Shown one piece after another: positions 2,901-22,000 of a stretch of DNA of 35,994 bases; positions within the stretch are counted from its first letter, which is position 1, and every line of letters starts with the position of its first letter. Under the pieces are notes generated by a model, which was not told the origin of the DNA, made no database searches, and saw nothing but the letters and a program-made list of their open reading frames with translations. A program made the position numbers and the translations under genes. The stretch comes from a virus: positions 1 to 35,994 of IMG/VR virus record IMGVR_UViG_3300025732_000128. One strand, written 5' to 3'.

Positions 2901-4031
2901 ATGCGCAATTTGGAAAGCGTTGAAAATAAGAAAGGTCTCGCTGGAGAACTCTACAGTCTTCTGGCTGACACGTACACAATGTACTTTAGAGTCCAATCAT
3001 GCCACTGGAATGTCGAGGGTTCAGATTTTCATGAATACCACGGATTCTTCGGCATGATCTATGACGATCTTGGATCCGCTATCGATCCAATCGCTGAAAA
3101 TATACGTAAACTAGGTTTTCAAGCACCGATGAACCTGCACGACATGTGCGCGGCGACAATGATCCAGGAAGAGCAACTATCTCCCGATCCCTTGAGCATG
3201 GTTTCGTCACTTCTTGCCGCAAATGGCATCGTGATTTCGCGACTCTATAGCGCGATTGTTGTTGCGAGAGAGATCATGCAGCCGGCGATTGAAAACTTCC
3301 TCGCTGACCGTCTCGGTATGCATCAAAAGTGGGAATGGCAGCTAAACTCCACGTTGAACCGTGGCTCTATCGGTATGCCGGGAAAAGCTATAGCTGATCA
3401 GCCTATTGGAGTGTCGGTTGTTGACATGAGCGATCAGCTGTTTGTTGAGTACGACACCGACGAGGGTGGAATGTACGCTTCGGCAAAGATCAAGTTTTCG
3501 GATAAGGTTGAAAAAATTCTAAGTGACAAGACTGCGGCATACAACAAAAAAGCTCCAGCAAATAGAGTTCTTTCAGTTGACCAACTCCGCGCTGTCTATC
3601 GTCGCGGCGCAAATTCTCATACGCTTGCTCACAGCGGGAGCGTATCAAGAGAATCACTTGCCATGGCTAGAGTTGACCAATTTCTAAAACTGTCTGGTCT
3701 ACAAAAAATATATGACATCAGCAGTTCGCAGGACAGTGATCTTCTTCCGGTCTCGCACCCTAAGTCAAGAAAAAGCGAATCAGCGCTCGTCGCGTCGCTC
3801 GATAGTGAACTTAGCATCGTCCTAAAAAATTCAGATGAATACGATTCGCCAGATAACGCAATTGTAGCATTAGCTGAATTTTCAGGCCATGGATACGAGA
3901 TAATTCCTGCGCTTCGCGCCGCATGGTCGCGTGCAGTCAATGCAGGCGACAGTGGATATAGCAGGGCGTATGAACTCGCGACAAAACTATATTCAAGCAG
4001 CGACAGTGATCTTCTTCCACGTATAGCGTAA
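2901..4031 (+). CDS. Dps/ferritin-like protein with long C-terminal extension
   Basis: Residues 1 to ~155 match the Dps (DNA-protection during starvation) ferritin-like four-helix domain, including the SCHWNVEG signature. Aligned by eye with E. coli Dps, H35, H47, D62 and E66 occupy the places of ferroxidase residues H51, H63, D78 and E82 with identical spacing; the D67 equivalent is Gly51, so the site may be altered. Dps proteins form dodecameric shells that oxidise iron with peroxide and protect DNA. The remaining ~220 residues are not ferritin; I recognise no domain, but DSDLLP occurs twice, near residue 280 and at the extreme C-terminus. The gene lies between the portal and the giant polyvalent gene, so packaging in the head is plausible but unproven. 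Confidence 0.8.
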   Translation: MRNLESVENKKGLAGELYSLLADTYTMYFRVQSCHWNVEGSDFHEYHGFFGMIYDDLGSAIDPIAENIRKLGFQAPMNLHDMCAATMIQEEQLSPDPLSMVSSLLAANGIVISRLYSAIVVAREIMQPAIENFLADRLGMHQKWEWQLNSTLNRGSIGMPGKAIADQPIGVSVVDMSDQLFVEYDTDEGGMYASAKIKFSDKVEKILSDKTAAYNKKAPANRVLSVDQLRAVYRRGANSHTLAHSGSVSRESLAMARVDQFLKLSGLQKIYDISSSQDSDLLPVSHPKSRKSESALVASLDSELSIVLKNSDEYDSPDNAIVALAEFSGHGYEIIPALRAAWSRAVNAGDSGYSRAYELATKLYSSSDSDLLPRIA

Positions 4032-4040
4032 GATGGAGCA

Positions 4041-7000
4041 GTGGTGAAAAAGAACAAGAATAGCAGAATTGCTAGATCAAAGTTTGCCGCCGGACATTCA
4101 AGTAAACTTCGTTCGCGTATCGAAATCACTCTCGCTGACGCAAATAAGAATGTTGGTCCAGAACGGCAAGTTACGTTAAAGACCGCAGTCACTGTCGCTA
4201 ACCGCGATCTAGTAAAAACAGCTAAAAGTTCGCCAGATGTTCGCGTATTTTCAGCGTTACGAGCCGTCAATGCTCATATCGCTCTCGCAAAGCACGATAG
4301 ACGTACATCAGCATCACTTTCTAACTCGGATCTGCTACCCATAGGGCATCCAGCTTGCACAAGAATGCACTCGATGACAGCGTCCGCACTGAGACACGCG
4401 CAGGCTAGATGGATTTCTGCGGATCAGTCAATCGACCCGGAAATCAGACCGCTTGTTGTTGCGGCGCATTCTGCTCTCCCTGGATCAGCCTCTCGTGATC
4501 ACGCATTTGCTCGACTTGCTACGGTCGACAGTCGACTTATTCCCATCTACGCATCGGTTGATCCGATCGTGGCTGTCGGTGGTTTTGGACTTGGAGGAAA
4601 CTCTTCAGCAGCTCGCTCGCTTCGTGCAAAGATGCAACGTCGCGACCGCTATGGCCGATTTGCATTCATGGGTGGTGGATTCTCTTTTAACTTGCGCGGA
4701 CTTGATGGACTCATGTCTGTAATTACCGGCAAGGTTGTTGGGCAATCTGGACAAGCTGACGACATTGAAATAGAAATCAATGGGAACTCGACTCTTCCTG
4801 ATGGCATCTACACAGTCCCGTCGAGTAAGGGCGAATCATTTAAGGCGATTATCGGCCGAGACGCACTTAGAAAGCTTATTGGAGAGCCAAGAACGCGTAA
4901 GACAATTGATGACGTGTTCGTAGATGTCAACGATCTTGGCCCAAGAAAAGAAGCGCCGTCAGGTTGGTCAAAGATCAGCTCAACAGGTGAGGGTTCTTTT
5001 CTACGCGAGGTATTTCAGTCAGAAGATGGGTACTTTGCCGTCAAGTCGTTTAGTGACCGCGGCGCTGTGCAATACGATCTTCACAGAGCAAATCTAAAAG
5101 ATAACTCTGTTGGAAAGAAAGTATCCTCTGGCGACTCATGGGCCAGCGTGCAGAGATCGGCTAAAAAAGATTCTCGTTCGTATGAAAAAGTGCTCAAGGA
5201 TTCGTACTCCAGAGAAAAATTTACCGGTGATCAATACGATCAACAGTATGAAAAGATCCGTGACCAACTTCTCGAGGAGGGATATTCTGGAGAAGAACTA
5301 GATGCAGAACTAAAGCGTCGCGCGTTTACTGCGGACTATCTTGCGAAAAAATCTAAACCGTACGACGACTTTGATGCGTACGCAGATTCGTTGTTTTTTG
5401 GAAAAGTAAGTGACTGGTACGTTGACAATCTATTGTCAAATTCCAAGTTGTCAAAATACAGAAAAAAGAAAAAGTTAAGTTATACCGACAAGATAAAAAT
5501 TGCAGAAATTGCGAATAGTGATCCGTCATTTGCAGACTATGTCGCGATTCCTAAGGGTATGACAAGAGATGAATTTGATGATCTGCGTAGTTGGGTTCTT
5601 TCTCCAGATTCTGGAAGTGTTAATTCAATAAAGTCAATCGATGTATCAGGTGAATGGCCAGTAATTAATCAACAACCTGCTGAATACATCGTCAATAAGA
5701 TAGCAAACGCTGTTGAAAGACTTCAAAAAGGTGAACATGTCGACAGAAAGACATGGACTGACCTTGCTAATCAGAGAAAAGCGCTACGTACTGATGCAGA
5801 AGAAATTGAATTTATCGGGTCGAATGTCAATGTCGGACGTAAAGCCGCTAGAGACATTATTGATAGATCCGACAACATACTTGATAGCGCCGATAACCGC
5901 GAACTCGGTGATCCACTGCGCGAAAGAGAGGTGGCTGAGGCGCAATATTTTGCTGACGTCGCTGAGCGCATAATTGATCATTTTGACCTTGAAGATTACA
6001 TCCGCGATGGACATTCGGAACTTATTTCTGACATTGCCGCCGTCCGCGACGCAAAATCAGCAGACATCGTCGAGTCCGACAAAGAATACATAGAGTCTGA
6101 TGTTCCAAAAGAACCAGAGTCAGATGTTGAAACGGGTGAACCAGCAACAAAAACTGAAGCACCTCTCGAGACAGCAGAGGCACCGGAAGAATCCACTAGC
6201 GCAGTTGTCGAAGAAGTAAAGTATACTCCTCAGGCCGGCGCCCGTGCGCTTACTGGAGTGACGAGAGACGAACTTGAATCTCAGATTGATGAAGCTATCT
6301 CACAGTCGCGTCCAGTGATCTTTGACTACAACGGAAAAGAGCGCACGTTTACTCCCACCGGTAAGTGGTTTAATCCTAAAGCTGGCCACACGAACCTTAC
6401 AGGGTTTGATGAAAACGGTGAAACTAGAACATACACCCTTGAAAAGATTACTCCAAAGCCAGCGCCGCCCTCGGCGGCAACTGTTCGTGAACTTGTTGGA
6501 GAAACTACAGCAGAGCGTGTCGCTGATATTGAAAATGCGATGACGAACGGTGAAGGCATCCGTTTTGTCTACAATGATAAAGAGCGGACGTTTATCCCAG
6601 AACGGGTGTATAGAACTCCGTCTGGAAACACGAATGTTGTCGGGTTCATGCAGACAGGCGATCAACCTGGCGAAGGCGAGAGCCGAACGTTCACAGTAGA
6701 GAAAATGGACTTGATACCACCGACTGTTGATGGATCAGTTGAAGATTTTTCAGATGCTCCGGTTTGGGAGCCGTTGTTTGACGACTTTTTTACTGTGCCA
6801 GACGGAGCTAAAAAAGTCAATATTTTTGACACCTATATCCCTAAAGGACGAACTACGGAAGGTAGTTCTGACTACACTGACGACCCGACAGTGCTCGCCC
6901 AGATGTTTGATGTCGACGAGTTGGCGACAGCTCTAAAGACTGCAGTTCTTCGTGACAGTGTAAGTGGTGATAGTGCGACAGGGTACGGAGATCTTGACTT

Positions 7001-10000
7001 TAGAGAAGGCACTGAAGCTGTACCCGCAGAAGCGCTGTACGAAGCTATTTCGCAAACGGGCATAGATGCTGACACACTGCTAGCTGTTATATACGACTCA
7101 GGATTTGACTCAGGAGAACAGAGAGATATAACAAATATAGAACTTGCCAAGCAACGCCGTGACGAGCTATTTTATGACCCCTCACTAAGTCCATACATCG
7201 ACTCGGTGCCAGTATCTCGCGAAGATTCAGATCGTCTTCGCGACCCAGATTCGTCAAAAAATCAAGAACTTCCTAGCAGAGTCGCTAATCTTCGTGCGGC
7301 CGTCGAGGATCTTTATTCGTCTCCTGAAACAAATCCTCGTCTAAAAGAAGTAGCTAATAGACTTCGCGAAATGTCTAAGGAGACAGCTCGCCCGATAGAT
7401 AGAGAAAAGCCGACTTTAAGTGAAGATGACAGAAACACTGCGTACATTGATCTTTTTAAAGAACATGTTGATCTAGCTCTCAGTTCTGATCCACAAGATC
7501 AAGAAGCGTTTGCTGGTATATGGGGAATGCTTCTTTCACTTGACGGTGGAGATGGCGACACTACGTGGGGATTCTATCCACACAACGTCAAGGGTCTTGC
7601 AGGCGGAGACGGGTGGCAATCAAAGATAGCTAGGGTTCTTTGGGATCGTTTTGGTGGATCCGATTCATATACTTCAGAGGAAGAAGATGAACCGATCTAT
7701 CTGCAAGCTGAAGAAGCTTGGAAAAAGATTGTAGACACCTACGGAGATCACGCATCATTCGCGTCGGCGAGAGAAAAACTTCTTCAGCGGGAACTGAGTC
7801 CAGATGACCCAGAAGCTAGAACTGCTGCAGCGTTTCATCGACTAGCTCTAGCGTCATCTAGTCCAAATGATAAACCTTTATATCGTTCAATTAGTGTTGA
7901 AAGAAATTCCGATCTGTTGAAGGCGTTGACAACAGTCGGAGCACAGATCTCAACCGATCCTAGATCGTGGACTGACGTAGATCTATCAACAGGAGACCTG
8001 GCGACTCAATATACGTTTGGAGCAAAAGCTTCACAGGACAGAGTTGTTTTTGAAGCTCTTCCTGGAGACGTTGACGCACTGGATCTTACAGGAATATCAT
8101 GGTTTGATGACGAGCGCGAAGTTGTTGCATCTGGTTTGTTTGAGGTTGTATCTGTAAGAAAGAACAAACTTCTGACTGGCGACAAACAAGGTGTCGAGCA
8201 TATTGTTCAAGTTCGTCGAACAAAAGATAAGCCGACAGACAGCGATGTTTCTGCAGAGCGGCTGACTGAGAAGGCGCCATCTGCAGAACAGCAACCAATC
8301 AAAACTCCAGAAGCAGCGCCGCAGGAGGTATCTGCAGAGCCTTCAATCACTTCAGCAAATAAATACTATTCAGGTATTGAAAACTGGAAACGTGTAGGTC
8401 CGCAATCTGGATCACATCCTGGAGGATTCTTTGAAGATCCAGAAGGTAGAAGATATTACGTAAAAATCCCCCACTCGAGATCGCACGCTGAAAATGAGTC
8501 TCTGGCGTCATTGATGTACGCGGAGGCTGGAATACCTGCGGCTGAAATTTCTCTCGGTGACTCGAACGGCGATCTTCGTCTAGTCTCACCTCTGATTCCA
8601 GACGCGGATGTTGAAGGTTTTGCCGAACGCGTATGGCAGGGTGACAGCGAAGTTCTTGATGCCGTACGCGACGGATTTGTCATGGACGCATGGCTAGCTA
8701 ACTGGGACAGCATCGGTCTAGTATATGACAACGTCGTTCTAGACGCTGACGGTAAGCCGGTCAGGGTTGATCCAGGCGGATCATTGATGTATCGAGCAAG
8801 AGGAGCAGAAAAAGGCGCAGCGTTTGGCGATCGAGTCGGCGAACTCGATACACTACGCGACCCAGATAATAACGAGCAAGCCGCGAACGTCTTTGGAGAG
8901 ATGACCGACGAGCAACTTCGCGCAAGTGCAATGCACGTTCGCGACATATCTCCGTCACGGATTGATGAAATTGTCGACAGCATAGTTAGTGACCCGTATG
9001 AAGCAAAACTTCTAAAGGATCGCTTGAAAGCTCGTCGTCAGTACATTCTTGACAGATTTGGAATTCCCGAAGGCACAGATGACAGTGACGTTTTGCCTGA
9101 ACCGATTTCTCTTGCTGATGACATCGGAATTGAAGCTCAAGATCTTCAGCCAGGTGACATCGCATACGACGAAAATCGAGTGCCGTTCGTTATTGAAAAA
9201 TCATTCATTGACGAAGAAACACCAAAGGGTAAGGTAAGTATCCAAGGATACTATCCAGGACACCAATCGCAGCGAAAAGAATGGAATCCGCAAACCGTCA
9301 TAACAGCGACTCGCGGAGAAAAAGTTCCACCAAAGGGCCCTCTAGAAGCGCTTCATAAGCCAAAACGTCCAAGAAAGCCAGGTTCATCAGCCTGGGGTGG
9401 CCGGATGGCTGAACTGCTACAAGGTGTTGAGACGTGGGAAGACGCCGCAGAAGTTATACGTGGAACTGACATCATTTTCTTTGACTACGAGACAACCGGT
9501 CTTATCGATCCAGATCAACCAAATGTAAAGAATGATCCGATTCAGCTTGGAGCCGTCCGTGTGCGAAACGGTAAGATAGTTGACCGACTCAATCTTTACA
9601 TGAACCCGGAATCAGAACTTTCAAGTTGGTCTTCTGAAAACCTTCTAAATCCTGACGGCGAACTAATCACTCCTGAATGGCTATCCCAGCAGATAAGCAA
9701 GAAAGAAGCTCATCAAAGATTTCTAGAATTTGCCGGCGAAAGTCCGATTCTTGGTGGACAAAACATCACTGGATTTGATCTAGAGGTTTTGAGACGCACG
9801 CTCTCCGAGAATGCCCTCGAGCTAGACATCGCTGGAACAATTGATTCAATGATTCTAGCAGATAAAACTCTGCCAAAGTACACTAAGGCAAATCCAGACG
9901 GTCCGCGGATGGTCACGAAGAACGGACAGGTTCGCGCGAGTAAATCTCTTGGACCAGTCGCAGACTATCTAGGTGTCCCGTTAGGCGATGGTTGGCACAG

Positions 10001-13000
10001 CGCCGACGCAGACGCTGAGGCGTCATGGGGCATTGTCGATGCGATGTTGTCGCGGGCGATTGATCATCCAGAAACTTCAACAGATCTTCTTGATACTGAA
10101 GAAGGTCGCGCTAAGCGTGCTGCTGATGAAGCCGAATATAACGCGGCTCTTGAAGCGCATAAGGACGAGCTAGCCGAGTATGAAGCAAAGAAGATTGTTG
10201 CAAAACTTTGGCACTGCGAGTGGACGCTTACAGCCGCAATTGACGGTGGAAGCAATGATGGTTGCGGACCAGTCGATCCGGACAATATCATTCAGAATGC
10301 TAGCAATCCAGGCCCAGATCCAATTGATCCGGACGGTGTTCCAGAAAACATCTCGCTTGGCGGCGAAATTGATAGAACAGACTACGACGGTGTTGATGTC
10401 AAAGACCCGTACGCAGACGAAAAGTTTCCGCCGACCCCGCAACAACGCGAAATCGTTGATGCTGTTCTTACCGGCGAGGACACTGTAGTTAGAGCTCTTG
10501 CTGGCACAGGTAAGACAAGTACACTGCAACTTATCGCGAGAAGACTCAAGAAAACAAGACCAAAGGCGCGTATTATTTACGTCGCATTTAACAGGTCAAT
10601 CGCTGAAGAAGCCGCCGATAAGATGCGCGGAACAAACGTTGAGTCAAGAACAGCGGACTCAATCGCTTGGCGATCAATGACGAAAAAGATGCGAGATAAA
10701 AAAGATCTAAATCGCTTCAACAGTACAGCTAATAAGCTGGCCGGTCATTTTGGAATTACTTCAATTGATGTCATACAGGACGACGGAACAATACGTCAGT
10801 TAAATCTGCGCGAAGCTGTCGCTGCTGTAAAGAAGACAGTCAATAACTATACGATAAGTGCAGATGACGATCTAGGTCCGCAGCACGTCCCATTTAACGA
10901 TCCGTCTGGGCAGATTCTCGGGTGGGCTCAGGAAATGTGGACAGATCTAAAAGATGAGAATGGATTCGCACCGTTCACATTTAATCATGCGATGAAGATA
11001 TGGGCTCTCTCCAGGCCAAATCTTGCGGATACGGCGTCTGGCGTTAGTTTTCCAGCTGACATCATCTTCTTTGACGAGGCTCAGGACATTAACCCCGTTC
11101 TTGGAAAGGTCATCGCTGATCAAAACATCCAAAAAGTATACGTGGGAGATGGAAATCAGGCGATTTACGCGTTCCGCGGAGCTGAAGATGAACTTCAAAA
11201 AGTTGTAGCCACGCACGATCTGCCGTTGACAAAGTCGTGGAGATTCGGCCCGCAGGTTGCAGGAATCGGAAACAGATTCCTATCTCTTCTTGGTTCAAAG
11301 CACAGGATCGAGGGTGGCGGACCAGACGGAGAGATCCTCGAGCGCGGTGACATGGTAGACGCTGACGCTGTGCTCGTGCGCTCGAATGCTGGCGCGATTA
11401 AGGCGATATTTGACGAACTAGAGCGTGGACGAACAGTCGGTGTATCGTCAAATTATAAAGAAGATCTTGTTAATTTCTACAATACGGCAAAATGGTTAAA
11501 GAACGGTGCTAATCCGAGCGACCGGCCTTCCGTTGTGCATGACGATCTTGTTGGATTCTCATCATGGGAAGATGTTGTACGAGAGTCTAAAGAAGAAGGA
11601 AGCAGAAAACTAAAGTTTCTTGTAGATCTAGTCGATGAGATTGGACTTGACGGCATAAATGATTTACTATCACAACTAAGAATTGTTAGTGCCGGAGAAA
11701 CTGGTGGTCAAAAGTCTACTAGAGTTTCAGTTCAAGATGTTCTTAGTGGCGCTAAAAATCATCTCTTGACCTATAAGTTTAACGGAAAAGATGAGAAGAT
11801 TGACTATCAGGTAGACGGCGACCGTGTCCTTCTTACCGGAGGAACTTTCAACGCAAAGTCTAGAATATATGACGCCGGCTTTAGGTGGGATAAAGACAAA
11901 AAAGCTTGGGCTAGAACGATTAAAGGCGACGATAAAAAGGCCGAAGAACTCAATAAGCTTCGTTCGATAATTGGAACTGATGACGAAGAAGGCGTTGATG
12001 TTGTCGTTACTACAGCTCATAGGTCAAAAGGTCTCGAGTGGGATAACGTAAGAATCGGTGACGATTTCTGGGGTCCTAGACTTGATAAGTCTGGCAACAA
12101 GGTTATGCCGAGTGACGAAGAAATTCGTCTAGCCTATGTTGCAGTTACCCGTGCGAAGAAGCGTCTTGATCCAGGTGCTCTTGAATGGATCTACGGCGAA
12201 ACTTCTGATGATGACGAACTTCCGTTCCAAAAGCCAGCGTTTGCTCCTCCGTCTGGTCCTGCAGTAAGTCTTCCTCCTCCAGGTGCACCTCAGAGTCCGT
12301 TTGCACCTCCCACTGGGATACCGCAGAATCTACCTGAAGTACCTGAAGTACCTGAAGTACCTGAAGTACCTGAAGTACCTGAAGTACCTGAAGTACCTGA
12401 AGTACCTGAAGTACCTGAAGTACCTGAAGTACCTGCGGCGCCTAGAAGTTCAGAACCAATCGGTGACGAGCAGTCTTTTGTAGGTAAGGCTGCCAAAAAG
12501 AAATACCCAGAACCTCACGGAAGATGGACAAGCAATGGGTACACGTTTGAAACCAAGACCGGGACATCAACAATAGGTCCAAACACGATAGCTGACATGA
12601 AGACAGGAAAAGCTATCGATTGGCTTTCAGACACCATCGGACTGCACCACGATGAGGCTGTTGATGTAGTACACCGACTTACCGGGAAGAAAGGTGTATG
12701 GGACCCCGAAGCCAACGACGGTGAAGGTGGCTATAAGATATATACGACTAAGGACTGGACACTAGATCTCCCTGAAGTCAATGAATCTGAACTCACTGGA
12801 TCAGATCTTGTTGATATTGGAGAAGTTCCATCTACTGAAGTTCCACCAGCAGGCCAGTCCGGAACCTCAAGTGTACCAGATTCTGGAGATCCAGATTTTG
12901 TTGACGAGGTTCTGTACGATCTTGATGATCCCGATGGAAGTTTTGTAGCCTCTATTGACGAGGTAATTACCGACGTCAATGAATCAATTGACGCGTTTAC

Positions 13001-16000
13001 AGGACAGTCATTTGAAAAGAAAAAGTTTAAAGACTTTGCGCAACGAATCATTGATCTAGCAGAACGTCTAAAAGCTGGAAAAATATCAAAAGATGACGCC
13101 CAAGCCGAGGTGCTAAAGCTATCAGATGAAGCTGACGGTCTTCCAGAAAAGTCAGTAAACTCTTCATTCATTAAATCGAATATTCTAAACTTTAGAAGAA
13201 TATTTACTGATAGGGTTATAGCAAAAGGTCTCCCTCCCGAAGGTAGTGGACTTGGATACTCAAAGAACGGAATTTTTATCGTCCCAGGTATGCGAGTCCG
13301 CGACAAGTGGGGATACGCTGGCACAGTAATAAGTTACAACCAACCAGACTTCATCAATGTATTTATACGTCCAGATATTGACCAACGCGATCCATCAAAA
13401 GTTAAAGGAAAGCCTTGGGGCCCTAAAAAGAATACGACGTCAAAGGGCACAAAAACGCTAACCGTTCTCCAAGAAGGAGACGACCAATCACCTTGGATCG
13501 ACAATGGAAAAGTCCCTGTAGGAAAGCGTCCTCATAATCTAGAAGACCAACTCAGACTTCTCGCTGAAATGGACTCTGATGACGGTGAAGGCCCTGTCGG
13601 TGTCGTTGAACCGACACCTTCACCTGACGATAGTGGTGGAGCAGCCGGCGAACCAGCGGCAGGCACGACAGAGGCACTTCGCAAAAACATTGAAAAAGCC
13701 GCGAAAGAAGAGGCGTGGTCTGGTGAAGAAGCAGAACGCACTGGTTCGGAGTCTGATACGCCCAAGATGTCCGAAGGTGCAAAAAAGTTTTTAGGCCCTC
13801 GAAAAGTTGGTGGAAGATACTGGAGTAATTATTATAAAAAACCGTATACGGTCGTAGCCATCAATACTGATCAAAACGGATTTACAAAAATAACTGTTGA
13901 ATGGCAGGATGGAGTGAGAACAACTCACTCAACACCATGGGACAGTAAAGACAAGATTATTGAAGAACCTCCGGAGTCTGAACCCCCAAAAGTTGAAGTC
14001 CCCACTGGGGACACGCCAGAGGTTGATAACTCTCCAGAAACAACAACAAAACTTGGAACTGATATTTCAACACCAGACGTGACAGTTGACGGTGTTGAGG
14101 CTGCCCCAGATCACACGCCGCAAGAACAAGATCTTCTTCAAAAAATGCTTTCTGAGGGTCCAAACGCTGTTGGCTCAGAATTTACGGCGAACTGGGTGCA
14201 ACACGTAGAAGACTTCATTGCGTCCGGCGCGAAAGATGACGAGGCAGCTGAAGCCGTTGCGCTGATCCAAAGTCTTGGCGATTCTCAGGAGTTACTTGAC
14301 GCGAGTCGCGGTAACGCTCTTCTACAGAATATGCGCACTGGCATTGCCGTATTTACAGAAGAAGGACCGCAGGCGTTACTCGGGAAGAAAAAGAAATACA
14401 GTCTCGATATGCCTGTACAGTCTGAGGACTTTGTTTCAGTTGACCTCATTCCAGTCGGCAAATCGTCAGTTAGGGCTTTCTACAGTGATATAGCTCGCTA
14501 TTTTGACGATCCAACGTTGATTGATACGGAGATGACTCCGGCTTCAGCGTTTCTTCGCGGAGTTAGATCTGGAACAGTTAAGGGTGGTCAAGGATATGAA
14601 CGTTGGATACAATTTGATGTTCCAATTACTGATCCAAATCATCCGTTGCATCAACTTCTTTCTCCAGGACAGGAAATCGATCTTCGTCCCTCTTCATGGA
14701 CCGCACTTGGCAACATAGCAAATGTCGCGTATGAGTACGATAAAACAGATGGAGAGATCGACGCTCTCGAAGGCGAGTATAAAAGCCCACCGATTGACAA
14801 AATTTACAGCGTAGTGCTCGAGGTCGGCGACGTTCCAGCTTTTGACATCTCAAAAACGAGTCCGATACCTAGTGAAAAAGAATCAGTTGTCACGAACGGA
14901 CGATACAAAGTTGCTTCCGTTGAACTCGATAGTCTTATCATGCCGTATCCAGAGTCCGTTCTCGAGGAGGGGCACCAAAATCATCTACCGATTGTCAGAA
15001 TACGTCTAGAATCTGTTACATCGCCGAATCGCGAGAACGTTGACGATGTCGAGTCTGCGTCTCAAGTTGCTCCAGAACCAGAACTAGAAGAAACGATCCC
15101 GCAGAGTAAATCCTCGTCTTGGGAGGGCGGAGTTCTCACAACGGACGCTGACGGAGTGACTGTTGCGAGTGGTTTAGGCTACGATACAGTGCAAAAACTT
15201 AAGAGAGGCGCGATTGATCCGCCTACTCTGCCGTTTTTTGTTCCTTTTGGTGGAGATCTCTCTGATCCAGAAAACGGTGAAGGATACTTTTTTGCAAAAT
15301 CAGGAAAACGTTATTGGGGAAGATACGGTGCGGCTGGAGTTTTAGTAAGAACAAAAGGTCCAGATGGAAAATATCGTTATCTTCTCGGTAAAAGAGCTGA
15401 TTGGATAAGTTCAGGTGGAGGAAAGTGGGCGTTCCCGGGTGGGGCGCACAAAAACAGAGATGAATCAAATGATCGAACTACTACGGCATTTGGAGAATTA
15501 AGTGAAGAACTGGGTCTTGATTTAAATCAAGAAAATTCAGTTGTTGTCGGTGAACACAGAAATGCTGTTGAACCCGACTGGGCGTACGACACTGTAATTG
15601 TTGACACAGACCGCGCAACCGCTGACTCGCACAGTATCGGCGATAACGAGACGTCAGCGACGGACTATTTCACTGCTGATCAAATTAGAGAAATGGCGAC
15701 GAGAGGCGAATTACACCCGGCACTTGAAAAATCAATATTTGAAATATTAGATATCGCCGAAGATGGAAATGATACCGCAGAAGAACCGGAGTCCAAAGAA
15801 TCACCGGATACTTTGCCAGAATCTGGCGCCGCCAGCGTGCTTTCTCAGGCGCCCGTCGGTGGAATAAGTCTCTCTGACGCGATTAAAAACGTGACAACAT
15901 CGTCTGCAGGAACGAGCAGTTCACTGTTCGATGGCGGAGATATTCACGATCTGTCAGTCTACGCCACCGTCAAAGACGCTAAAAATGGCGGACTGCTAGA

Positions 16001-17993
16001 TGAATTAGGAACTGATGGTCCGCGACTAGTTCTATCTCTTAAATTGGCGCCTGATACTGGACTCGAGATGCGAAGACTTGCTGTCGATGACGAAAGTGGA
16101 TGGAAACCGTTAGTTGAAAATGGTCGTCTTGGTAGTTCAATTCCGAACCGAGCGTTCAATCAAGATACTGGAATGTTCTCCGATGTTCTCTACACGAGTT
16201 CTGGAGCAGTAGCTCAACCAACAAGACTGCAAACAGTATATAGTTCAAACCCTCTAAACGCGATGTCAACAGAGCAAGTGACATTTATCTATGTTGACCC
16301 GAAAGAGCGTTTCAAGATTCGCGGAGTGTTCTTTGAGGTTGATCCGACGGAACCAAAGGCTCCAACAGTCGGAAATACAGTTGAAATTGAATTCGCGGAT
16401 GATAAACCGTCTGATGAAGTCATCCGCGATGCACTTCGCCAAGCCGGGGTGCAGAATCCTTCTCCGCCGTCAGACGCCGACGTACAGCGTCTTGTCGAAA
16501 ATCGTCTAATGCGCGTCTATGGTCGCGTTGATTTTGGGCAAGTTGTTAACGAGTCTGATCGCAAAGATATTCTTGAAAGCATTGAATATAAATTTGGCAT
16601 CACCGCGAGTGACTATGAAGTAGCGACAGATTCTAGTGGATTCACTAAAATTCTATTGAGTGAAGACGCAGCTGACACTATAGTTCGTCGTACTGGACTT
16701 GCGGGTCTCAGTCATAGCGTGACGTTTCCTTCATCAGCGGGCAGTGATGATGAGTACGCCGACTACATGGCCAACCTGTTGATGACTGGCAACTTGAAGT
16801 CGGCTCATAGAAGATTTCATATCGGACAACAGTATCGCGGTTTAAGTACTGACACAGACCTTGAGTCGGGGGCCGGGGACTACGTTTTCCTATCGCAAGA
16901 AGACGAGCAAAGCGCGTATTTTCTTACGACTGGAAACAGTCTCTATGATAACGCAGTAATATTTTTTAATCATCGTCAAATTCTTAGAAGACCGGACATT
17001 TGGGCGAACGTTGTTGACAGATACGGATCAACGACAGCGCATACCGACGTGATTACGAATATCAAGCCCGGAGGGTATGAATTGATGGTCAAGCATGAAG
17101 TAGGTTTTGATGACGCAATTGCTATTTATGTCCCGCCAAAGGTCATAGGGCCGTTGATCGCGAAATTAAAATCTAAAGGCATTGATCAGATCGGCGGAAT
17201 TCCAGTTGAAGATATAATATACGACGCTGCTCTTGGTCCACAGTCTGGTGATGCCGGCGAGCGCCTGCGCGAAGGCAGAAAACAGTATGAGAAATACATA
17301 AATTCATCTGGATCGCCAGCTAATTTCCCGACGTATGCGGCAATGAGCGAAACTGCCGGAGGAATCCAAGATGACGGAAAGTTTAGATATGGCTACGAGC
17401 AGTATCCGACGTTTCCGCGCGCGAGGAGCGAAGTTTTGGCTATCGACAAGAAAACTGGAGATCTTTTAGTTGCCAAAAAGAATAACAGTGAATTTTTTAT
17501 TGGATTTGAAGTTGTCTACAAGAACAATACGGCTAGAGGACTACCATCGTCGAGTCCAATTGACGCTGACAATGAGATGATCGCCAACAGTCTTGAAAGT
17601 CCAGATTTTATACGTTTAGGCACGTACGGCGTACGTGGCGAAGACCCAAATGGGACGAGCTACACTACAGATAAGAATAAGATTGAAAGTATATTTGAGG
17701 ATCTACAGAATAAAAAAATTACTCCTGTTGAAGCATATCAAGCTTTAATGTCAATGTATCTGTCTAATCTAAACACTCTCATAAAGGAAGATCTGGTAGC
17801 TATACTTTTCCGTTTGGAAAGTCGACAGACTGACTACGCCAGATATAAAGATTTTGTGTACCTATCTGACTATGCAGCTGAAGCCGGCCACGGCTGGACA
17901 TCAGTCGTACCAAAGCGGCAAAACGATGAAGGAGGCGAATCAAGTGCAAAAAATTTCAAAAATCCTAGTGGATCGAACAACCTCCCGCTATAA
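4041..17993 (+). CDS. Giant multidomain 'polyvalent' phage protein (4,650 aa)
   Basis: One uninterrupted frame covers about 39% of the window. It starts at GTG 4041; GTG 4044 has better spacing from the upstream GGAG. Domains in order: N-terminal region ending in a RDRYGRFAFMGG module (~201-290); unknown helical region (~300-700); two WYL-like repeats (~745-895); ART (~1260-1392); HipA/PI-kinase-like domain (~1444-1676); DEDDh exonuclease (~1805-2000); SF1 helicase (~2130-2715); (PEV)11 linker (2765-2797); unknown region with small beta modules; ART-like domain (~3450-3655); Nudix domain (~3760-3905); unknown C-terminal region with a possible third ART-like segment (~4265-4400). Polyvalent phage proteins are known to combine such enzymes, and Mu-F-like members are packaged; packaging here is inferred from the position between portal and protease genes. 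Pro/Glu/Ser-rich linkers separate the domains. Confidence 0.9.
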   Translation: MVKKNKNSRIARSKFAAGHSSKLRSRIEITLADANKNVGPERQVTLKTAVTVANRDLVKTAKSSPDVRVFSALRAVNAHIALAKHDRRTSASLSNSDLLPIGHPACTRMHSMTASALRHAQARWISADQSIDPEIRPLVVAAHSALPGSASRDHAFARLATVDSRLIPIYASVDPIVAVGGFGLGGNSSAARSLRAKMQRRDRYGRFAFMGGGFSFNLRGLDGLMSVITGKVVGQSGQADDIEIEINGNSTLPDGIYTVPSSKGESFKAIIGRDALRKLIGEPRTRKTIDDVFVDVNDLGPRKEAPSGWSKISSTGEGSFLREVFQSEDGYFAVKSFSDRGAVQYDLHRANLKDNSVGKKVSSGDSWASVQRSAKKDSRSYEKVLKDSYSREKFTGDQYDQQYEKIRDQLLEEGYSGEELDAELKRRAFTADYLAKKSKPYDDFDAYADSLFFGKVSDWYVDNLLSNSKLSKYRKKKKLSYTDKIKIAEIANSDPSFADYVAIPKGMTRDEFDDLRSWVLSPDSGSVNSIKSIDVSGEWPVINQQPAEYIVNKIANAVERLQKGEHVDRKTWTDLANQRKALRTDAEEIEFIGSNVNVGRKAARDIIDRSDNILDSADNRELGDPLREREVAEAQYFADVAERIIDHFDLEDYIRDGHSELISDIAAVRDAKSADIVESDKEYIESDVPKEPESDVETGEPATKTEAPLETAEAPEESTSAVVEEVKYTPQAGARALTGVTRDELESQIDEAISQSRPVIFDYNGKERTFTPTGKWFNPKAGHTNLTGFDENGETRTYTLEKITPKPAPPSAATVRELVGETTAERVADIENAMTNGEGIRFVYNDKERTFIPERVYRTPSGNTNVVGFMQTGDQPGEGESRTFTVEKMDLIPPTVDGSVEDFSDAPVWEPLFDDFFTVPDGAKKVNIFDTYIPKGRTTEGSSDYTDDPTVLAQMFDVDELATALKTAVLRDSVSGDSATGYGDLDFREGTEAVPAEALYEAISQTGIDADTLLAVIYDSGFDSGEQRDITNIELAKQRRDELFYDPSLSPYIDSVPVSREDSDRLRDPDSSKNQELPSRVANLRAAVEDLYSSPETNPRLKEVANRLREMSKETARPIDREKPTLSEDDRNTAYIDLFKEHVDLALSSDPQDQEAFAGIWGMLLSLDGGDGDTTWGFYPHNVKGLAGGDGWQSKIARVLWDRFGGSDSYTSEEEDEPIYLQAEEAWKKIVDTYGDHASFASAREKLLQRELSPDDPEARTAAAFHRLALASSSPNDKPLYRSISVERNSDLLKALTTVGAQISTDPRSWTDVDLSTGDLATQYTFGAKASQDRVVFEALPGDVDALDLTGISWFDDEREVVASGLFEVVSVRKNKLLTGDKQGVEHIVQVRRTKDKPTDSDVSAERLTEKAPSAEQQPIKTPEAAPQEVSAEPSITSANKYYSGIENWKRVGPQSGSHPGGFFEDPEGRRYYVKIPHSRSHAENESLASLMYAEAGIPAAEISLGDSNGDLRLVSPLIPDADVEGFAERVWQGDSEVLDAVRDGFVMDAWLANWDSIGLVYDNVVLDADGKPVRVDPGGSLMYRARGAEKGAAFGDRVGELDTLRDPDNNEQAANVFGEMTDEQLRASAMHVRDISPSRIDEIVDSIVSDPYEAKLLKDRLKARRQYILDRFGIPEGTDDSDVLPEPISLADDIGIEAQDLQPGDIAYDENRVPFVIEKSFIDEETPKGKVSIQGYYPGHQSQRKEWNPQTVITATRGEKVPPKGPLEALHKPKRPRKPGSSAWGGRMAELLQGVETWEDAAEVIRGTDIIFFDYETTGLIDPDQPNVKNDPIQLGAVRVRNGKIVDRLNLYMNPESELSSWSSENLLNPDGELITPEWLSQQISKKEAHQRFLEFAGESPILGGQNITGFDLEVLRRTLSENALELDIAGTIDSMILADKTLPKYTKANPDGPRMVTKNGQVRASKSLGPVADYLGVPLGDGWHSADADAEASWGIVDAMLSRAIDHPETSTDLLDTEEGRAKRAADEAEYNAALEAHKDELAEYEAKKIVAKLWHCEWTLTAAIDGGSNDGCGPVDPDNIIQNASNPGPDPIDPDGVPENISLGGEIDRTDYDGVDVKDPYADEKFPPTPQQREIVDAVLTGEDTVVRALAGTGKTSTLQLIARRLKKTRPKARIIYVAFNRSIAEEAADKMRGTNVESRTADSIAWRSMTKKMRDKKDLNRFNSTANKLAGHFGITSIDVIQDDGTIRQLNLREAVAAVKKTVNNYTISADDDLGPQHVPFNDPSGQILGWAQEMWTDLKDENGFAPFTFNHAMKIWALSRPNLADTASGVSFPADIIFFDEAQDINPVLGKVIADQNIQKVYVGDGNQAIYAFRGAEDELQKVVATHDLPLTKSWRFGPQVAGIGNRFLSLLGSKHRIEGGGPDGEILERGDMVDADAVLVRSNAGAIKAIFDELERGRTVGVSSNYKEDLVNFYNTAKWLKNGANPSDRPSVVHDDLVGFSSWEDVVRESKEEGSRKLKFLVDLVDEIGLDGINDLLSQLRIVSAGETGGQKSTRVSVQDVLSGAKNHLLTYKFNGKDEKIDYQVDGDRVLLTGGTFNAKSRIYDAGFRWDKDKKAWARTIKGDDKKAEELNKLRSIIGTDDEEGVDVVVTTAHRSKGLEWDNVRIGDDFWGPRLDKSGNKVMPSDEEIRLAYVAVTRAKKRLDPGALEWIYGETSDDDELPFQKPAFAPPSGPAVSLPPPGAPQSPFAPPTGIPQNLPEVPEVPEVPEVPEVPEVPEVPEVPEVPEVPEVPAAPRSSEPIGDEQSFVGKAAKKKYPEPHGRWTSNGYTFETKTGTSTIGPNTIADMKTGKAIDWLSDTIGLHHDEAVDVVHRLTGKKGVWDPEANDGEGGYKIYTTKDWTLDLPEVNESELTGSDLVDIGEVPSTEVPPAGQSGTSSVPDSGDPDFVDEVLYDLDDPDGSFVASIDEVITDVNESIDAFTGQSFEKKKFKDFAQRIIDLAERLKAGKISKDDAQAEVLKLSDEADGLPEKSVNSSFIKSNILNFRRIFTDRVIAKGLPPEGSGLGYSKNGIFIVPGMRVRDKWGYAGTVISYNQPDFINVFIRPDIDQRDPSKVKGKPWGPKKNTTSKGTKTLTVLQEGDDQSPWIDNGKVPVGKRPHNLEDQLRLLAEMDSDDGEGPVGVVEPTPSPDDSGGAAGEPAAGTTEALRKNIEKAAKEEAWSGEEAERTGSESDTPKMSEGAKKFLGPRKVGGRYWSNYYKKPYTVVAINTDQNGFTKITVEWQDGVRTTHSTPWDSKDKIIEEPPESEPPKVEVPTGDTPEVDNSPETTTKLGTDISTPDVTVDGVEAAPDHTPQEQDLLQKMLSEGPNAVGSEFTANWVQHVEDFIASGAKDDEAAEAVALIQSLGDSQELLDASRGNALLQNMRTGIAVFTEEGPQALLGKKKKYSLDMPVQSEDFVSVDLIPVGKSSVRAFYSDIARYFDDPTLIDTEMTPASAFLRGVRSGTVKGGQGYERWIQFDVPITDPNHPLHQLLSPGQEIDLRPSSWTALGNIANVAYEYDKTDGEIDALEGEYKSPPIDKIYSVVLEVGDVPAFDISKTSPIPSEKESVVTNGRYKVASVELDSLIMPYPESVLEEGHQNHLPIVRIRLESVTSPNRENVDDVESASQVAPEPELEETIPQSKSSSWEGGVLTTDADGVTVASGLGYDTVQKLKRGAIDPPTLPFFVPFGGDLSDPENGEGYFFAKSGKRYWGRYGAAGVLVRTKGPDGKYRYLLGKRADWISSGGGKWAFPGGAHKNRDESNDRTTTAFGELSEELGLDLNQENSVVVGEHRNAVEPDWAYDTVIVDTDRATADSHSIGDNETSATDYFTADQIREMATRGELHPALEKSIFEILDIAEDGNDTAEEPESKESPDTLPESGAASVLSQAPVGGISLSDAIKNVTTSSAGTSSSLFDGGDIHDLSVYATVKDAKNGGLLDELGTDGPRLVLSLKLAPDTGLEMRRLAVDDESGWKPLVENGRLGSSIPNRAFNQDTGMFSDVLYTSSGAVAQPTRLQTVYSSNPLNAMSTEQVTFIYVDPKERFKIRGVFFEVDPTEPKAPTVGNTVEIEFADDKPSDEVIRDALRQAGVQNPSPPSDADVQRLVENRLMRVYGRVDFGQVVNESDRKDILESIEYKFGITASDYEVATDSSGFTKILLSEDAADTIVRRTGLAGLSHSVTFPSSAGSDDEYADYMANLLMTGNLKSAHRRFHIGQQYRGLSTDTDLESGAGDYVFLSQEDEQSAYFLTTGNSLYDNAVIFFNHRQILRRPDIWANVVDRYGSTTAHTDVITNIKPGGYELMVKHEVGFDDAIAIYVPPKVIGPLIAKLKSKGIDQIGGIPVEDIIYDAALGPQSGDAGERLREGRKQYEKYINSSGSPANFPTYAAMSETAGGIQDDGKFRYGYEQYPTFPRARSEVLAIDKKTGDLLVAKKNNSEFFIGFEVVYKNNTARGLPSSSPIDADNEMIANSLESPDFIRLGTYGVRGEDPNGTSYTTDKNKIESIFEDLQNKKITPVEAYQALMSMYLSNLNTLIKEDLVAILFRLESRQTDYARYKDFVYLSDYAAEAGHGWTSVVPKRQNDEGGESSAKNFKNPSGSNNLPL
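6276..6720 (+). other. Two tandem WYL-like repeats within the giant protein
   Basis: Two ~55-residue segments share one pattern. The first has VIFDYNGKERTFTPTGKWF then GHTNLTGFDENGETRTYTLEKI; the second has IRFVYNDKERTFIPERVYR then GNTNVVGF and SRTFTVEKMD. The order of a beta strand with Y, an R-T-F-x-P step, a glycine turn and a final R-(T/Y)-(Y/F)-T-(L/V)-E-K strand resembles WYL domains, which sense ligands or nucleic acid in regulators and defence proteins. Sequence is short and divergent, so the family call is tentative, but internal duplication is clear. Confidence 0.5.
7800..8214 (+). other. ADP-ribosyltransferase (R-S-E type) domain in the giant protein
   Basis: The domain shows the R-S-E ART order: R1282 in LYRSI, S1309-W-T1311 in the NAD-binding strand position, and E1358-R-E1360 as the catalytic E-x-E, followed by the typical final strand VVASGLFEVVSV. 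This clade transfers ADP-ribose from NAD to arginine or other acceptors. ART domains fused to phage head proteins are known, and T4 Alt is a packaged, injected ART that modifies host RNA polymerase. The target here is unknown. The domain sits directly before a Ser/Glu/Pro-rich linker and the kinase-like domain. Confidence 0.75.
8370..9068 (+). other. HipA/phosphoinositide-kinase-like domain in the giant protein
   Basis: Residues ~1444-1676 start with WKRVGPQSGSHPGGFF, a glycine-rich ATP-binding type segment, followed by lysine K1475 in YYVKI. The catalytic-loop candidate is NWDSIGLVYDN (D1556, D1563, N1564) and the metal-binding aspartate is D1577 in VDPGG. This order matches the HipA/PI3-PI4-kinase-like fold seen in phage and mobile-element proteins, where the activity is assumed to be Ser/Thr kinase-like. 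All key residues appear present, so activity is plausible. A DSDVLP motif (1681-1686) follows just after the domain end. Confidence 0.7.
9453..10050 (+). other. DnaQ-like DEDDh 3'-5' exonuclease domain in the giant protein
   Basis: Exo I is FFDYETTG with D1815 and E1817, Exo II is GQNITGFDLEVL with D1913, and Exo III is H1986-S-A-D-A-D1991, giving a complete DEDDh active site with the H-x4-D spacing. These residues bind the two metal ions used in 3'-5' hydrolysis of DNA or RNA ends. An insert of roughly 40 residues precedes the Exo III block. The domain lies ~120 residues before a helicase in the same chain, suggesting joint nucleic-acid processing. Confidence 0.85.
10425..12195 (+). other. 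SF1 (UvrD/Fbh1-like) helicase domain in the giant protein
   Basis: All major SF1A motifs are visible: Q motif TPQQREIV (~2132), Walker A AGTGKTST (K2158), motif II FFDEAQDINPV (D2345, E2346), motif III YVGDGNQAIYAFRGA, motif IV KSWRFG, motif V TTAHRSKGLEWDNV and motif VI YVAVTRAKKRL (~2699). This indicates an ATP-dependent 3'-5' DNA translocase of the UvrD/Fbh1 group. Between motifs IV and V is an insertion containing GTFNAKSRIYDAGFRWDKD, then AWART, which resembles DUF5710-type modules that often accompany nucleic-acid enzymes. The domain appears catalytically intact. Confidence 0.88.
12333..12431 (+). repeat. Perfect 11 x 9-bp tandem repeat encoding (Pro-Glu-Val)11
   Basis: Eleven identical units of CCTGAAGTA encode 33 residues of PEV directly after the helicase domain of the giant protein, flanked by further Pro-rich sequence. 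The lack of any substitution between units points to recent expansion by slippage. The protein segment is probably a stiff, acidic spacer between domains. The unit is a multiple of three, so length changes keep the frame. Confidence 0.97.
14388..15010 (+). other. Second, divergent ART-like domain in the giant protein
   Basis: Residues ~3450-3655 repeat the layout of the first ART: an arginine-bearing first strand (candidate SSVRAFYSD), S3552-W-T3554 in the second motif, and E3612-K-E3614 followed by a closing strand NGRYKVASVELD that parallels the first domain's ending. Spacing between the motifs differs and the N-terminal arginine is uncertain, so an inactive or altered-substrate domain is possible. 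No other family fits better by eye. Confidence 0.45.
15321..15753 (+). other. Nudix hydrolase-like domain in the giant protein
   Basis: Residues ~3760-3905 contain GAAGVLVRTKGPDGKYRYLLGKR, quoted in part as GAAGVLVRTK, then KWAFPGGAHKNRDES and a Nudix-box end FGELSEELGL. Nudix enzymes hydrolyse nucleoside diphosphates linked to another group, including NADH and ADP-ribose. The metal-binding glutamates of the ExxEE end are kept, but the usual arginine before them is Gly and the loop between the first Glu and this block seems two residues longer, so activity needs testing. With the ART domains it suggests NAD or ADP-ribose metabolism in one chain. Confidence 0.7.
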
Positions 17994-18311: not shown

Positions 18312-19046
18312 ATGGATCAAGAACGAAAAACGACAAGTCGTTGGCCTCAAACACTTGGTCCTAAAGATAATCTATATGTCGTTCAAAATGACGACACTGA
18401 TGAACCGGAGTATTTGATTTTTTCAAGTATGAAAAAGCGCGCGACGTTTATGCGTAATAACGGTGCGTGGTGGCGTATTGATCAAAATGTTATAATGGAT
18501 TTTGATGATCTAAAGTATTCAATTTACTTTGTTGAACCAGATTACATAGATGAATACGACAGATTTGAATCCACAAAATTTTCAGACAAAGTGCAGATGA
18601 ATATTCCAAGTGATGCCGCCGTGGTGACGGCTGCAGCATACGAGTGTCCACCTGCAACTCAAGACATCAAATTAAATCTAAAAAATAGATCAAGAGCAAT
18701 TTCCGTTGCAAACTATGGTCCACTAAATCCAAAAGAAGAAAATAAAGATTTCTGGGAAGAAAAAGCTGAAAACTGGTCTGTGTCAATTGATGACGCGAAA
18801 AAATCACTCTGTGCCAACTGCGTATTTTTTGTTGTCACAGACGATGTTAAAAACTGTATTGCTTCAGGGTTGGAGCAAGGCGGCTCGTCATCAAACGATG
18901 CCTGGGACTCGATTGTAGCTGCAGAACTTGGTTACTGTGAAGCATTTGATTTTAAGTGTGCAGGTAGTAGAACGTGTGATGCATGGGCCGTAGGCGGACC
19001 AATTGATAACAACAGTCAAGGAGCTAGAAAAGATGCGATCAGTTAG
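18312..19046 (+). CDS. Cysteine-rich protein, possible metal-binding domain
   Basis: A 244-aa protein. The N-terminal half is beta-rich with no recognised domain. The C-terminal ~80 residues contain six cysteines: C167-x2-C170, C182, C209, C216 and C222, in SLCANCVFFV, LGYCEAFDFKCAG and RTCDAW. This spacing suggests a bound zinc or iron-sulfur centre; the exact family is not clear. A shorter CxxC...C...C module of the same flavour (CSNCILYAGG, GSCRFALIP) ends the frameshifted form of the next protein. The stop overlaps the start of the protease gene by 14 bases. Confidence 0.7.
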   Translation: MDQERKTTSRWPQTLGPKDNLYVVQNDDTDEPEYLIFSSMKKRATFMRNNGAWWRIDQNVIMDFDDLKYSIYFVEPDYIDEYDRFESTKFSDKVQMNIPSDAAVVTAAAYECPPATQDIKLNLKNRSRAISVANYGPLNPKEENKDFWEEKAENWSVSIDDAKKSLCANCVFFVVTDDVKNCIASGLEQGGSSSNDAWDSIVAAELGYCEAFDFKCAGSRTCDAWAVGGPIDNNSQGARKDAIS

Positions 19047-22000
19047 TCTATACGGACAGGCTGGAAATTACGCGCTGTATTCCGACGGTTCATCAGCTGT
19101 TGTCATCGACAGAAATCTCAACATGATCGAAGACACTGGATCGTTCGCTGACCTTCTGATCTTGTATCCATGGATTTCATCAGAAAACATCGCTCAGCAC
19201 GAGCAAGAAGATTTGCATCTTGAACTAGCGATCGGCACTCTCCAAAGTCTTGACATCGAGACAATAACCGCGTCTGGTCGCATGTACACGATTCCAAAGG
19301 GAGCGCAAGAAGAAGCAAAGAAAGCTCTTGAATGGAGAAAGAAGTATAAAAGAGGCGGAACACCCGTTGGGCTAAATACGGCAAGAATTTTAGCAAACGG
19401 CGGACAAATAGGAATCAATAAAGTCCGGCACATCGCTAAATATTTTCCACGCCATGAAGTTGACAAAAAAGGAAGAGGATACAAGCCTGGCGACGACGGT
19501 TTTCCGTCATCAGGTCGTATCGCTTGGGCGCTTTGGGGCGGAGATACCGCGTGGAAATGGGCTCGCCAAATTGTTGAACGCGAAAATAAGTCAATTAATG
19601 CCTGTGGAAATTATGATGATTCGTTTCAACCATTGCGATCATATGATTCAAACGTTAACGCGTTCGAGATCGCTAGAGCGTATGACGGCCTAGAAAATTC
19701 TCCAGAATTTGCAGCGCGCGTTCGGTTAGACGGATCTGGAATTGACCGACTCTACATGATTGATCAGCAGGGTCAAGTATTCGTTTGGGATGGAAATTCT
19801 TGGGACGATCTTGGGCACATCGACAGTGACATCTCGACGTACGACAGATCACTTGATGATCCGTACGATCGCGTCGAAAAGCATCATGTTCTAATTGATC
19901 ACGAATCGGCACTGATTCTTTCGGCAAAAATGCAGATGAATCCTTTTAGTGCCGTTCAAATTGAAGATCTTGACGAACAGGAAGCTCAATTGGTAGCGCT
20001 AGCTGCGGATGAGATCGACTGGGTGACAATTGACTCTACGCTAGTCGCTGCTGGAGAAGAACCGTTAAGTGGGCAATCATCAAAAGACGGAGTGTACACT
20101 CCGGAGGAGCGAGCGGCAAACGCAAAACGGCAAGTCCGCGACAAGGGCGGAAAATTTGCAAAGATGGGTTCAAGAGTCTCTATAGACGGAGATTCAGGCG
20201 CCGTCGGAAACATCACAAGAATAAATCCAGATCGCGGAACTGTGTCAGTGACAATGGATGATGGTTCGGTTCGCGAAGTTGCTGGAAATAGAACAGAGAC
20301 ATACACCGGAGATTCTGGACAGGCACCGGCGCTTCGTAAGGAACCGGAGGACGCGAAAACAGACCAAGCACCTCTCGATACTTCTGGAATCTTGGCTCAG
20401 CCTCGAGCGCCAATCGATCGTCCAAAAGCTACCATCCCAAACGGTCTTCCAGCGCTCACGAGTGACGATCTAAAGCAGATTGTCAACGACTACCCTGCAT
20501 GGGTTGTTAGCCAGCGTGAAGCAAACACCACGCAAGCACCTTCTTCTTCTTCTTCTTCTTCTTCTTCTTCTTCTTCTTCTTCTTCAGATTCTAGCGAGCC
20601 GGCGTCAACTGTAAAAACTGTAAAACCAGCAGGAGACAACGCTCCGCAGCATCAAAAGAGCGACTATCTAAAGAAATTAGAAGAAGATACTGGAACTTCT
20701 CTCTATACCGACAGCGCGTTAAATCACCCTCTTCTGCAGAACTTTTTCAAGAAAAAGAAAAACAAGCTCTGGTATAACCCGATAACTTCAGCGGCAGAAT
20801 CGCCTGCTGCTGTCGTCGCACCTGATGTTGAAGAGGCTTCTGGCACTGAACTTACTCCAGAAACAAGTGACGTTCCTCCGATGTATCTTGCTCTCGTCTC
20901 ACCGGATGATCCTGCCGCTGTTATGGATCTTATTTCCATAGTTCCAGCATCAACTAAACTTGCTACACCCGTTGTGTTTAAGCGAGTTGACGGAAAATGG
21001 TTACGTGATGACCAAATTTTGAAAGACCTGAAGTCAGCGACTCCTCCCCCCGTAGTGGCGCTTGACGCAGTGTCGTACGAAGACGTTTTGAGTCAAGTTG
21101 ATCAGACGCAAGATGCGGCGGTGGCCGCCGCTGTTCCAACAGAATTCTCAAGAAAATTTGTTGAACTGTATCTTGCAAAAATCAGTCCACTTGCAATTAT
21201 CGCAGAAGGTGGAATTGACAGAAATAGAGGCAACGCGGAAAAACTTCGCCGCTACTGGCTGTACGGTCGCGGAGCTCTAAAAATCAGATGGAACACACCA
21301 GGTGACTGGACTCGGTGCTACCGTCACCTCCGTAAATACATGGGTCCTCGCGCAAAAGGATACTGCGCGTTACGTCACAAGGAAGCGACAGGCGTGTGGA
21401 CCGGCAGTCGATTCAATGTTGGAAAACGAAATGTTAGAGGAAGCGCGTTCGAGACATACGAACTAGCTGATGAACAGCAGATTTTTTCAATTGCTGAAAC
21501 AAGAGCAGCGATCAACGCGGCTCGCGAACGTGTCCTCACAGCGTCTGTTGATCAGCAAATAGTCGGAAGAAAATTTACAATTCCACTTGTGATTCCGGAA
21601 GAAACAGAAACAGGCGACGGCAGAATATTTAAGAAAGATTCAATTGAATTTAGAGAACTTCCGTTGCCTCTACTCTGGCAGATCAAGACATCAGACGGAC
21701 ACGACGGATCAGTTGTTGTCGGAAGAATAGATCACATGGAGCGCGTCGACGGTGGAATTGGAAACGCGCACGGCGTGTTTGACACCGGCGCCTACGGCCG
21801 CGAAGCGCAGAGAATGATTGAAAATGGATTTATTCGTGGCGTATCAGCAGATCTTGATAAGTTTGAAGCGAGCGAAGACAGTGATGACGATGACGACATC
21901 GATGCGGCCGCTGAAAAAATAGAAAAAAGTAAAAAGAAAAAGAAGATTGAAAATTCTAAAATTCTTGTTGACAAGGCAAGAATAATGGCGGTCACGATTG

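Follow-up and report, generated by a model that had tools for sequence, protein, structure and literature searches.

The window analysed here, which is the whole 35,994-base stretch of an IMG/VR virus record from a freshwater phage, carries the gene order portal, Dps/ferritin-like gene, giant polyvalent protein gene, two small open reading frames (ORFs), protease ORF, 190-residue ORF, major capsid gene and tail genes. The portal gene, the Dps/ferritin-like gene, the giant gene with its domains, the protease ORF and the 190-residue ORF lie on the plus strand. The portal gene (1123..2853) matches phrog_776 with an E-value of 5.8e-105, and its product is 75% identical to the portal protein of Actinomycetia phage DSL-LC01 (OQ999401.1), a complete, metagenome-assembled record of 129 kb. 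The Dps/ferritin-like gene (2901..4031; Pfam Ferritin, 7.1e-15) encodes a probable co-cargo, the homologues of which in loci L031 and L099 bear the tag motif described below. The giant gene (4041..17993) starts with a GTG at 4041, with a further GTG at 4044 and a GGAG upstream (4034-4037), and runs for 4,650 codons without a stop. Downstream are a capsid-maturation-protease fusion ORF of 1,408 residues (19003..23229), in which phrog_18402 covers residues 1056-1240, and a small scaffold-like ORF of 190 residues (23518..24090), 57% identical to the product of a DSL-LC01 gene that bears a protease annotation. The initial annotation had described one continuous frame between portal and capsid protease. 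The phrog_776 and phrog_18402 matches confirm this location, while the open frame and the recurrence of the same module junctions in independent contigs confirm its continuity.

Several other features of the window were observed. Bases 1-95 are identical to bases 20487-20581, and each copy continues into a (CTT)n array. The left end of the contig thus probably arose by misassembly at this simple repeat, so that the first ORF is unreliable in its 5' portion. The protease ORF, which contains a (CTT)n array, corresponds to a fusion of two genes that are separate in DSL-LC01. The Dps/ferritin-like protein may itself be packaged, as a cargo that binds DNA or handles iron; DSL-LC01 retains its C-terminal part only. 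Adjacent head/tail proteins (26149-27237 and 28415-29782) have in common a phrog_9998-like inserted domain, seemingly missing from their DSL-LC01 counterparts, and the tape-measure gene, with which the contig ends on the right, contains 123-bp direct repeats (34596-35994).

The giant protein begins with a region conserved throughout the family (residues 1-390; 4041..5210), which is 44% identical to its DSL-LC01 counterpart and was found in 194 viral contigs in one scan. Residues 196-215 (4626..4685) form the tag motif RAKMQRRDRYGRFAFMGGGF, a proposed procapsid targeting or processing signal. Further along the chain, two WYL-like repeats (residues 742-803 and 823-889; 6264..6707) were detected by PADLOC WYL (E-value 3.1e-6) and by a repeat HMM. 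Six of seven homologous copies match Pfam WYL below the cut-off, a weak and consistent signal that tentatively suggests a WYL assignment. The first ADP-ribosyltransferase domain (ART1, residues 1234-1464; 7740..8432) displays the R-S-ExE signature (R1282, S1309 and E1358-x-E1360) together with the corresponding fold, the fold search returning Tre1 (Z 9.8) and HopU1 (Z 8.7). A second R-S-ExE domain (ART2, residues 3500-3679; 14538..15077) contains R3521, S3552 and E3612-x-E3614 and is a paralogue of ART1 (E-value of 1.1e-11 with the ART1 HMM; hhalign probability 97.7%); its structural model has low confidence, and it is assigned by these residues and this homology only. Searching viral contigs with ART2 alone yielded nothing new.

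The kinase domain (residues 1441-1690; 8361..9110) is of the CtkA/HipA/CotH-like type. Its AlphaFold2 model matches CtkA with a Z of 16.3 (rmsd 3.4, 217 aligned residues), followed by CotH (14.1), PI4KIIalpha (13.2) and HipA (11.1). The atypical kinase fold is accompanied by the conserved Lys, catalytic Asp/Asn and metal-binding Asp expected of a CtkA/HipA-like kinase: the residues in question are K1475, D1549, N1554, D1556, N1564 and D1577, and the key Lys and Asp/Asn are kept in a 21-sequence alignment. At the sequence level, the domain has no significant Pfam match, and a profile of the preART1-ART1-kinase segment found no match among PDB sequences. Relatives of the kinase domain are present at 51 bacterial genome loci (L199-L249) from widely differing phyla.

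The DEDDh 3'-5' exonuclease (residues 1776-2062; 9366..10226) and the UvrD-type SF1 helicase (residues 2121-2710; 10401..12170) were both detected directly by Pfam, PHROGs and NCBIfam. The exonuclease matches Pfam RNase_T (3.9e-12) and phrog_192 (9.3e-21), and its D1815, E1817, D1913, H1986 and D1991 are kept in 13 aligned relatives. The helicase matches phrog_1967 (3.5e-82) and Pfam UvrD (1.3e-14) and possesses Walker A, Walker B and motif VI. Between the helicase and the middle region, a tandem array of 11.7 copies of TACCTGAAG (12331..12435), made of perfect 9-bp repeats, encodes a (VPE)n linker; the length of this array may be variable. The Nudix hydrolase domain (residues 3740-3915; 15258..15785) has a divergent box and, searched alone, passes the Pfam cut-off with an E-value of 2.6e-4. 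The family profile matches RenU (6uuf) with an E-value of 6e-21, and the structural model superimposes on RenU with a Z of 20.0 (rmsd 2.2, 156 aligned residues). Relative to the consensus GX5EX7REUXEEXGU, E3819, E3822 and E3823 are kept, while REUXEEXG is replaced by GELSEELG, with Gly in place of Arg and a shifted spacing.

Close to the end of the chain, a conserved domain with invariant residues (approximately residues 4110-4405; 16368..17255) is found in most full-length kinase-bearing relatives and has no similarity to ART1. Its candidacy as a third ART was not supported, with an hhalign probability of 0.3 against ART1 and only noise from a profile search of PDB sequences; in the fold search, the matches listed were taken up by the Nudix domain. 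A Pfam search with the whole chain missed the ART, kinase, Nudix and WYL domains. The list of modules first read from the sequence (two ARTs plus kinase, exonuclease, helicase and Nudix modules) is borne out by profile, residue, homology and fold matches, and is now extended by the two WYL-like repeats, the N-terminal tag motif, the (VPE)n linker and the conserved C-terminal domain.

The window giant is not a one-off; it belongs to a widespread family that includes still larger proteins. Related viral stretches number at least 560 by a portal-profile scan and 194 by an N-terminal scan. Intact homologues of 2,541 to 7,671 residues occupy the same slot after the portal gene in independent viral contigs, many with the same backbone order, and full-length homologous frames free of stops were found with 4,616, 5,212, 5,086, 5,184, 6,562, 6,094, 5,743, 6,546 and 7,671 residues. 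The usual order is N-terminus, WYL-like repeats (one to four in number), ART1, kinase, exonuclease, helicase, middle region, variable stretch and C-terminal domain, the variable stretch of the giants being the location of the second ART, the Nudix domain and a second kinase. In L162, the Nudix cassette precedes ART1 rather than lying near the C-terminus; some lineages have the ART and kinase without the exonuclease and helicase, and others the reverse. Isolated actinobacteriophages carry other large proteins in the same slot, namely Racecar gp78, Zooman gp70 and gp72, and Forza gp78 and gp80 (ART), and the pairing of ART and kinase is also seen in Forza, Jeremy and L003. In a separate observation, a 3,665-residue protein from another viral contig (L007:8255-19249) has this kinase domain fused to the large-polyvalent-protein-associated domain LPD38.

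Two sister contigs, L169/L170 and L171, share about 96% nucleotide identity. One sister giant contains a clean in-frame insertion of 673 residues with two ART-like stretches inside, and a second length difference is located near residues 520-1095. The dN/dS of the pair is 0.20 across 15,192 nonsynonymous sites, ranging from 0 to 0.37 by domain, and these domains are under purifying selection. Helicase and exonuclease were located solely inside giants. No copy of the helicase was found anywhere in DSL-LC01, Zooman, G010, G016 or G018, and no copy of the exonuclease in the same five or in Racecar; the records of DSL-LC01 and of the named phages are complete, and those of G010, G016 and G018 may be fragments. 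Since a stand-alone replacement is absent in these relatives, the phages can do without either enzyme, which argues for the exonuclease and helicase being accessory cargo rather than core replication enzymes.

The tag motif has the form Q-x-RDxxG[RKQ][FW]..MGGG, with the core R-D-x-x-G-[RK]-[FW] in the context Q-x-RDR-x-GRFA-x-MGGG. It occurs once per motif-bearing giant, usually near residue 200-230, and recurs in the protease ORF (near residue 370; nt 20137 in the window) and in the 190-residue ORF (as RDAKGKF, nt 23608), and hardly elsewhere. Across 198 loci, 190 raw matches were counted versus 3.7 in shuffled ORFs, a count biased for the giant copy by the fact that part of the loci were fetched with a motif-containing pattern. 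When distinct motif contexts are considered, 96 out of 99 lie in the giant, the protease fusion, the 190-residue ORF, a Dps fusion or an A466-like cargo ORF, and Racecar gp78 is one of the three that lie outside these classes. The portal-selected test and the whole-record scan of named phages are free of the bias for the giant, and the protease and scaffold-like copies are unbiased in every scan. In the portal-selected loci, all 20 distinct cases have the motif (with G[RKQ] allowed) within residues 1-450 of the largest downstream ORF. Twelve whole records contain 41 matches of the DNA-form motif versus 3 of the reversed pattern. The four DSL-LC01 matches all fall within genes for head cargo, protease or scaffold-like proteins, and G006, G007, G009 and G016 have exactly three matches each, with the spacing of the giant, the protease and the 190-residue ORF. 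We infer that the motif is a procapsid-targeting or processing signal. Racecar gp166 (L250, 111081-112013), encoded away from the head genes, is a counter-example with its two RDSKGRF copies; either it is a further packaged protein, or the repeat may have arisen by chance.

Taken together, these observations make it likely that the giant is a phage polyvalent effector which is produced late, loaded into the procapsid and delivered along with the DNA. The suggestion of a virion-packaged multi-tool, made in the initial annotation, gains support from the portal-to-protease slot, the motif common to the protease and scaffold-like ORFs, the swappable modules and the precedent of P1 DarB. In such a scheme, the giant would be synthesized late in infection, recruited to the procapsid through its N-terminal region with the Q-x-RDxxGRF..MGGG tag and perhaps processed by the head protease, and would enter the new host cell together with the DNA. 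There, the ARTs and the kinase may modify host proteins, and the exonuclease-helicase may target DNA or a defence that relies on nucleic acids. Signals based on NAD/ADP-ribose or nucleotides could be handled or sensed by the Nudix and WYL-like domains. The modules behave as exchangeable cassettes. It is possible that ART and Nudix act in one predicted NAD/ADP-ribose pathway. Points that speak against a packaged effector include the absence of LPD and ArdC-N matches and of an HExxH zincin motif in the window giant, the two motif copies of the non-head protein Racecar gp166, and the need for a 4,650-residue chain to cross the portal unfolded or to be cleaved. A broader proposal, namely that the shared tag loads any fused module into the head, as a general protein-delivery slot of the actinobacterial phages in this group, in which multi-thousand-residue toolkits evolve by in-frame cassette exchange, appears to us evenly balanced.

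The giant could instead act in the infected cell, in host takeover or replication, without ever being packaged, its position among head genes being incidental. The resemblance of the exonuclease and helicase to replication enzymes fits this explanation, not every late gene is structural, and no virion proteomics was found for any family member. However, both slot and tag are conserved family-wide, the tag is common to the protease and scaffold-like ORFs, and relatives without the exonuclease and helicase have no replacement elsewhere, so that we consider this explanation unlikely. A mainly structural or scaffolding head protein, for instance of an internal core, with decayed enzyme domains, would account for the N-terminal motif common to the protease and scaffold-like ORFs and for the low-complexity linkers of the giant. 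It is nevertheless very improbable given the catalytic residues retained in divergent relatives, the purifying selection on the sister-pair domains, and a range of length and content (2.5 to 7.7 thousand residues) unlike that of a structural core.

Another explanation takes the ARTs as toxins against eukaryotic grazers of infected bacteria and the remainder as passenger, following the 'Trojan horse' idea put forward for VIP2-like ARTs from freshwater phages, a set that includes phages predicted to infect Actinobacteria (PMC6802176). This leaves the shared motif and the exonuclease, helicase, Nudix and WYL-like domains of the same chain unexplained, and Tre1, among the closest ART folds, belongs to a toxin/immunity pair; we give it hardly any credence. 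Finally, the joining of several genes by misassembly, brought to mind by the probable artefact at the left contig end, is refuted by the position of that end outside the gene and by the presence of the module junctions in one open frame in independent contigs.

Under the broader proposal of a general delivery slot, the motif would represent a capsid-targeting system new for these phages. Should the packaged-effector interpretation be correct, it would explain how many host-takeover and counter-defence enzymes enter the cell before any gene expression, and would offer a protein-delivery handle for Actinobacteria. The short candidate packaging tag can be tested in isolated actinobacteriophages. 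In widespread freshwater phages, the polyvalent-protein strategy reaches an architecture of constant backbone and variable cassettes. Within the open-access literature, to the exclusion of subscription journals and preprints, we found neither an earlier description of this module combination, of a constant-backbone family reaching 7.7 thousand residues, of the cassette exchange or of the shared tag, nor papers on the isolated relatives Racecar, Zooman and Forza.

Polyvalent proteins as such are already known (PMC5512222), and the giant is a new family-wide variant of them. As described by Iyer et al. (2017, PMC5512222), they combine disparate enzyme domains, including ARTs, in a virion-gene setting of portal-terminase phages, with predicted injection. 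The earlier assignment to this class is right: the window giant joins at least two disparate activities in one polypeptide, lies amid late or virion genes (portal, protease, major capsid and tail genes, with terminase in DSL-LC01), and its domains recur in other combinations (Forza, Jeremy and L003; L007). The same study reports UvrD helicases in actinomycete plasmid proteins, mentions NUDIX only as linked to InPase domains, and gives a different description of the kinase group, with loss of the C-terminal subdomain (PMC5512222). LPDs, ArdC-N and zincins are a common theme of polyvalent proteins and are not required in each (PMC5512222). In the window giant, LPD and ArdC-N gave no Pfam match up to an E-value of 1, a search that divergent members could escape, and no HExxH zincin motif was found. 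T4 Alt is not known to be fused to a kinase, nuclease or Nudix domain. Alt itself is a head-packaged, injected ART (PMC5512222), and a survey of viral NAD/ADP-ribose systems makes the case that packaging in the head is frequent among ART and Nudix proteins (PMC9503650).

Among phage genomes, DSL-LC01 encodes a homologue of 3,289 residues in the same slot (WJZ48510.1, annotated as hypothetical protein), which shares with the window giant the N-terminus, WYL-like repeats, ART1, kinase and C-terminal domain, and lacks the exonuclease, helicase and Nudix domain. Identity is 29-44% over most segments and 57% in the kinase. In the isolated Arthrobacter phage Racecar, gp78 (2,709 residues) directly follows the portal gene; its helicase is homologous to that of the window giant (39% identity), sequence comparison gave no match to ART1, the kinase or the exonuclease, and the tag motif lies N-terminally, at about residue 23. 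P1 DarB is a methylase-helicase anti-restriction protein. It is a 251 kDa head protein, the N-terminal 30 residues of which suffice to target a reporter to the capsid interior. The P1 ORF order lists it beside the portal and prohead protease, and it is believed to enter the cell (PMC9024508). By analogy, P1 DarB would be the closest experimental precedent for the giant, with the difference that the window motif is found around residue 200 and not at the extreme N-terminus.
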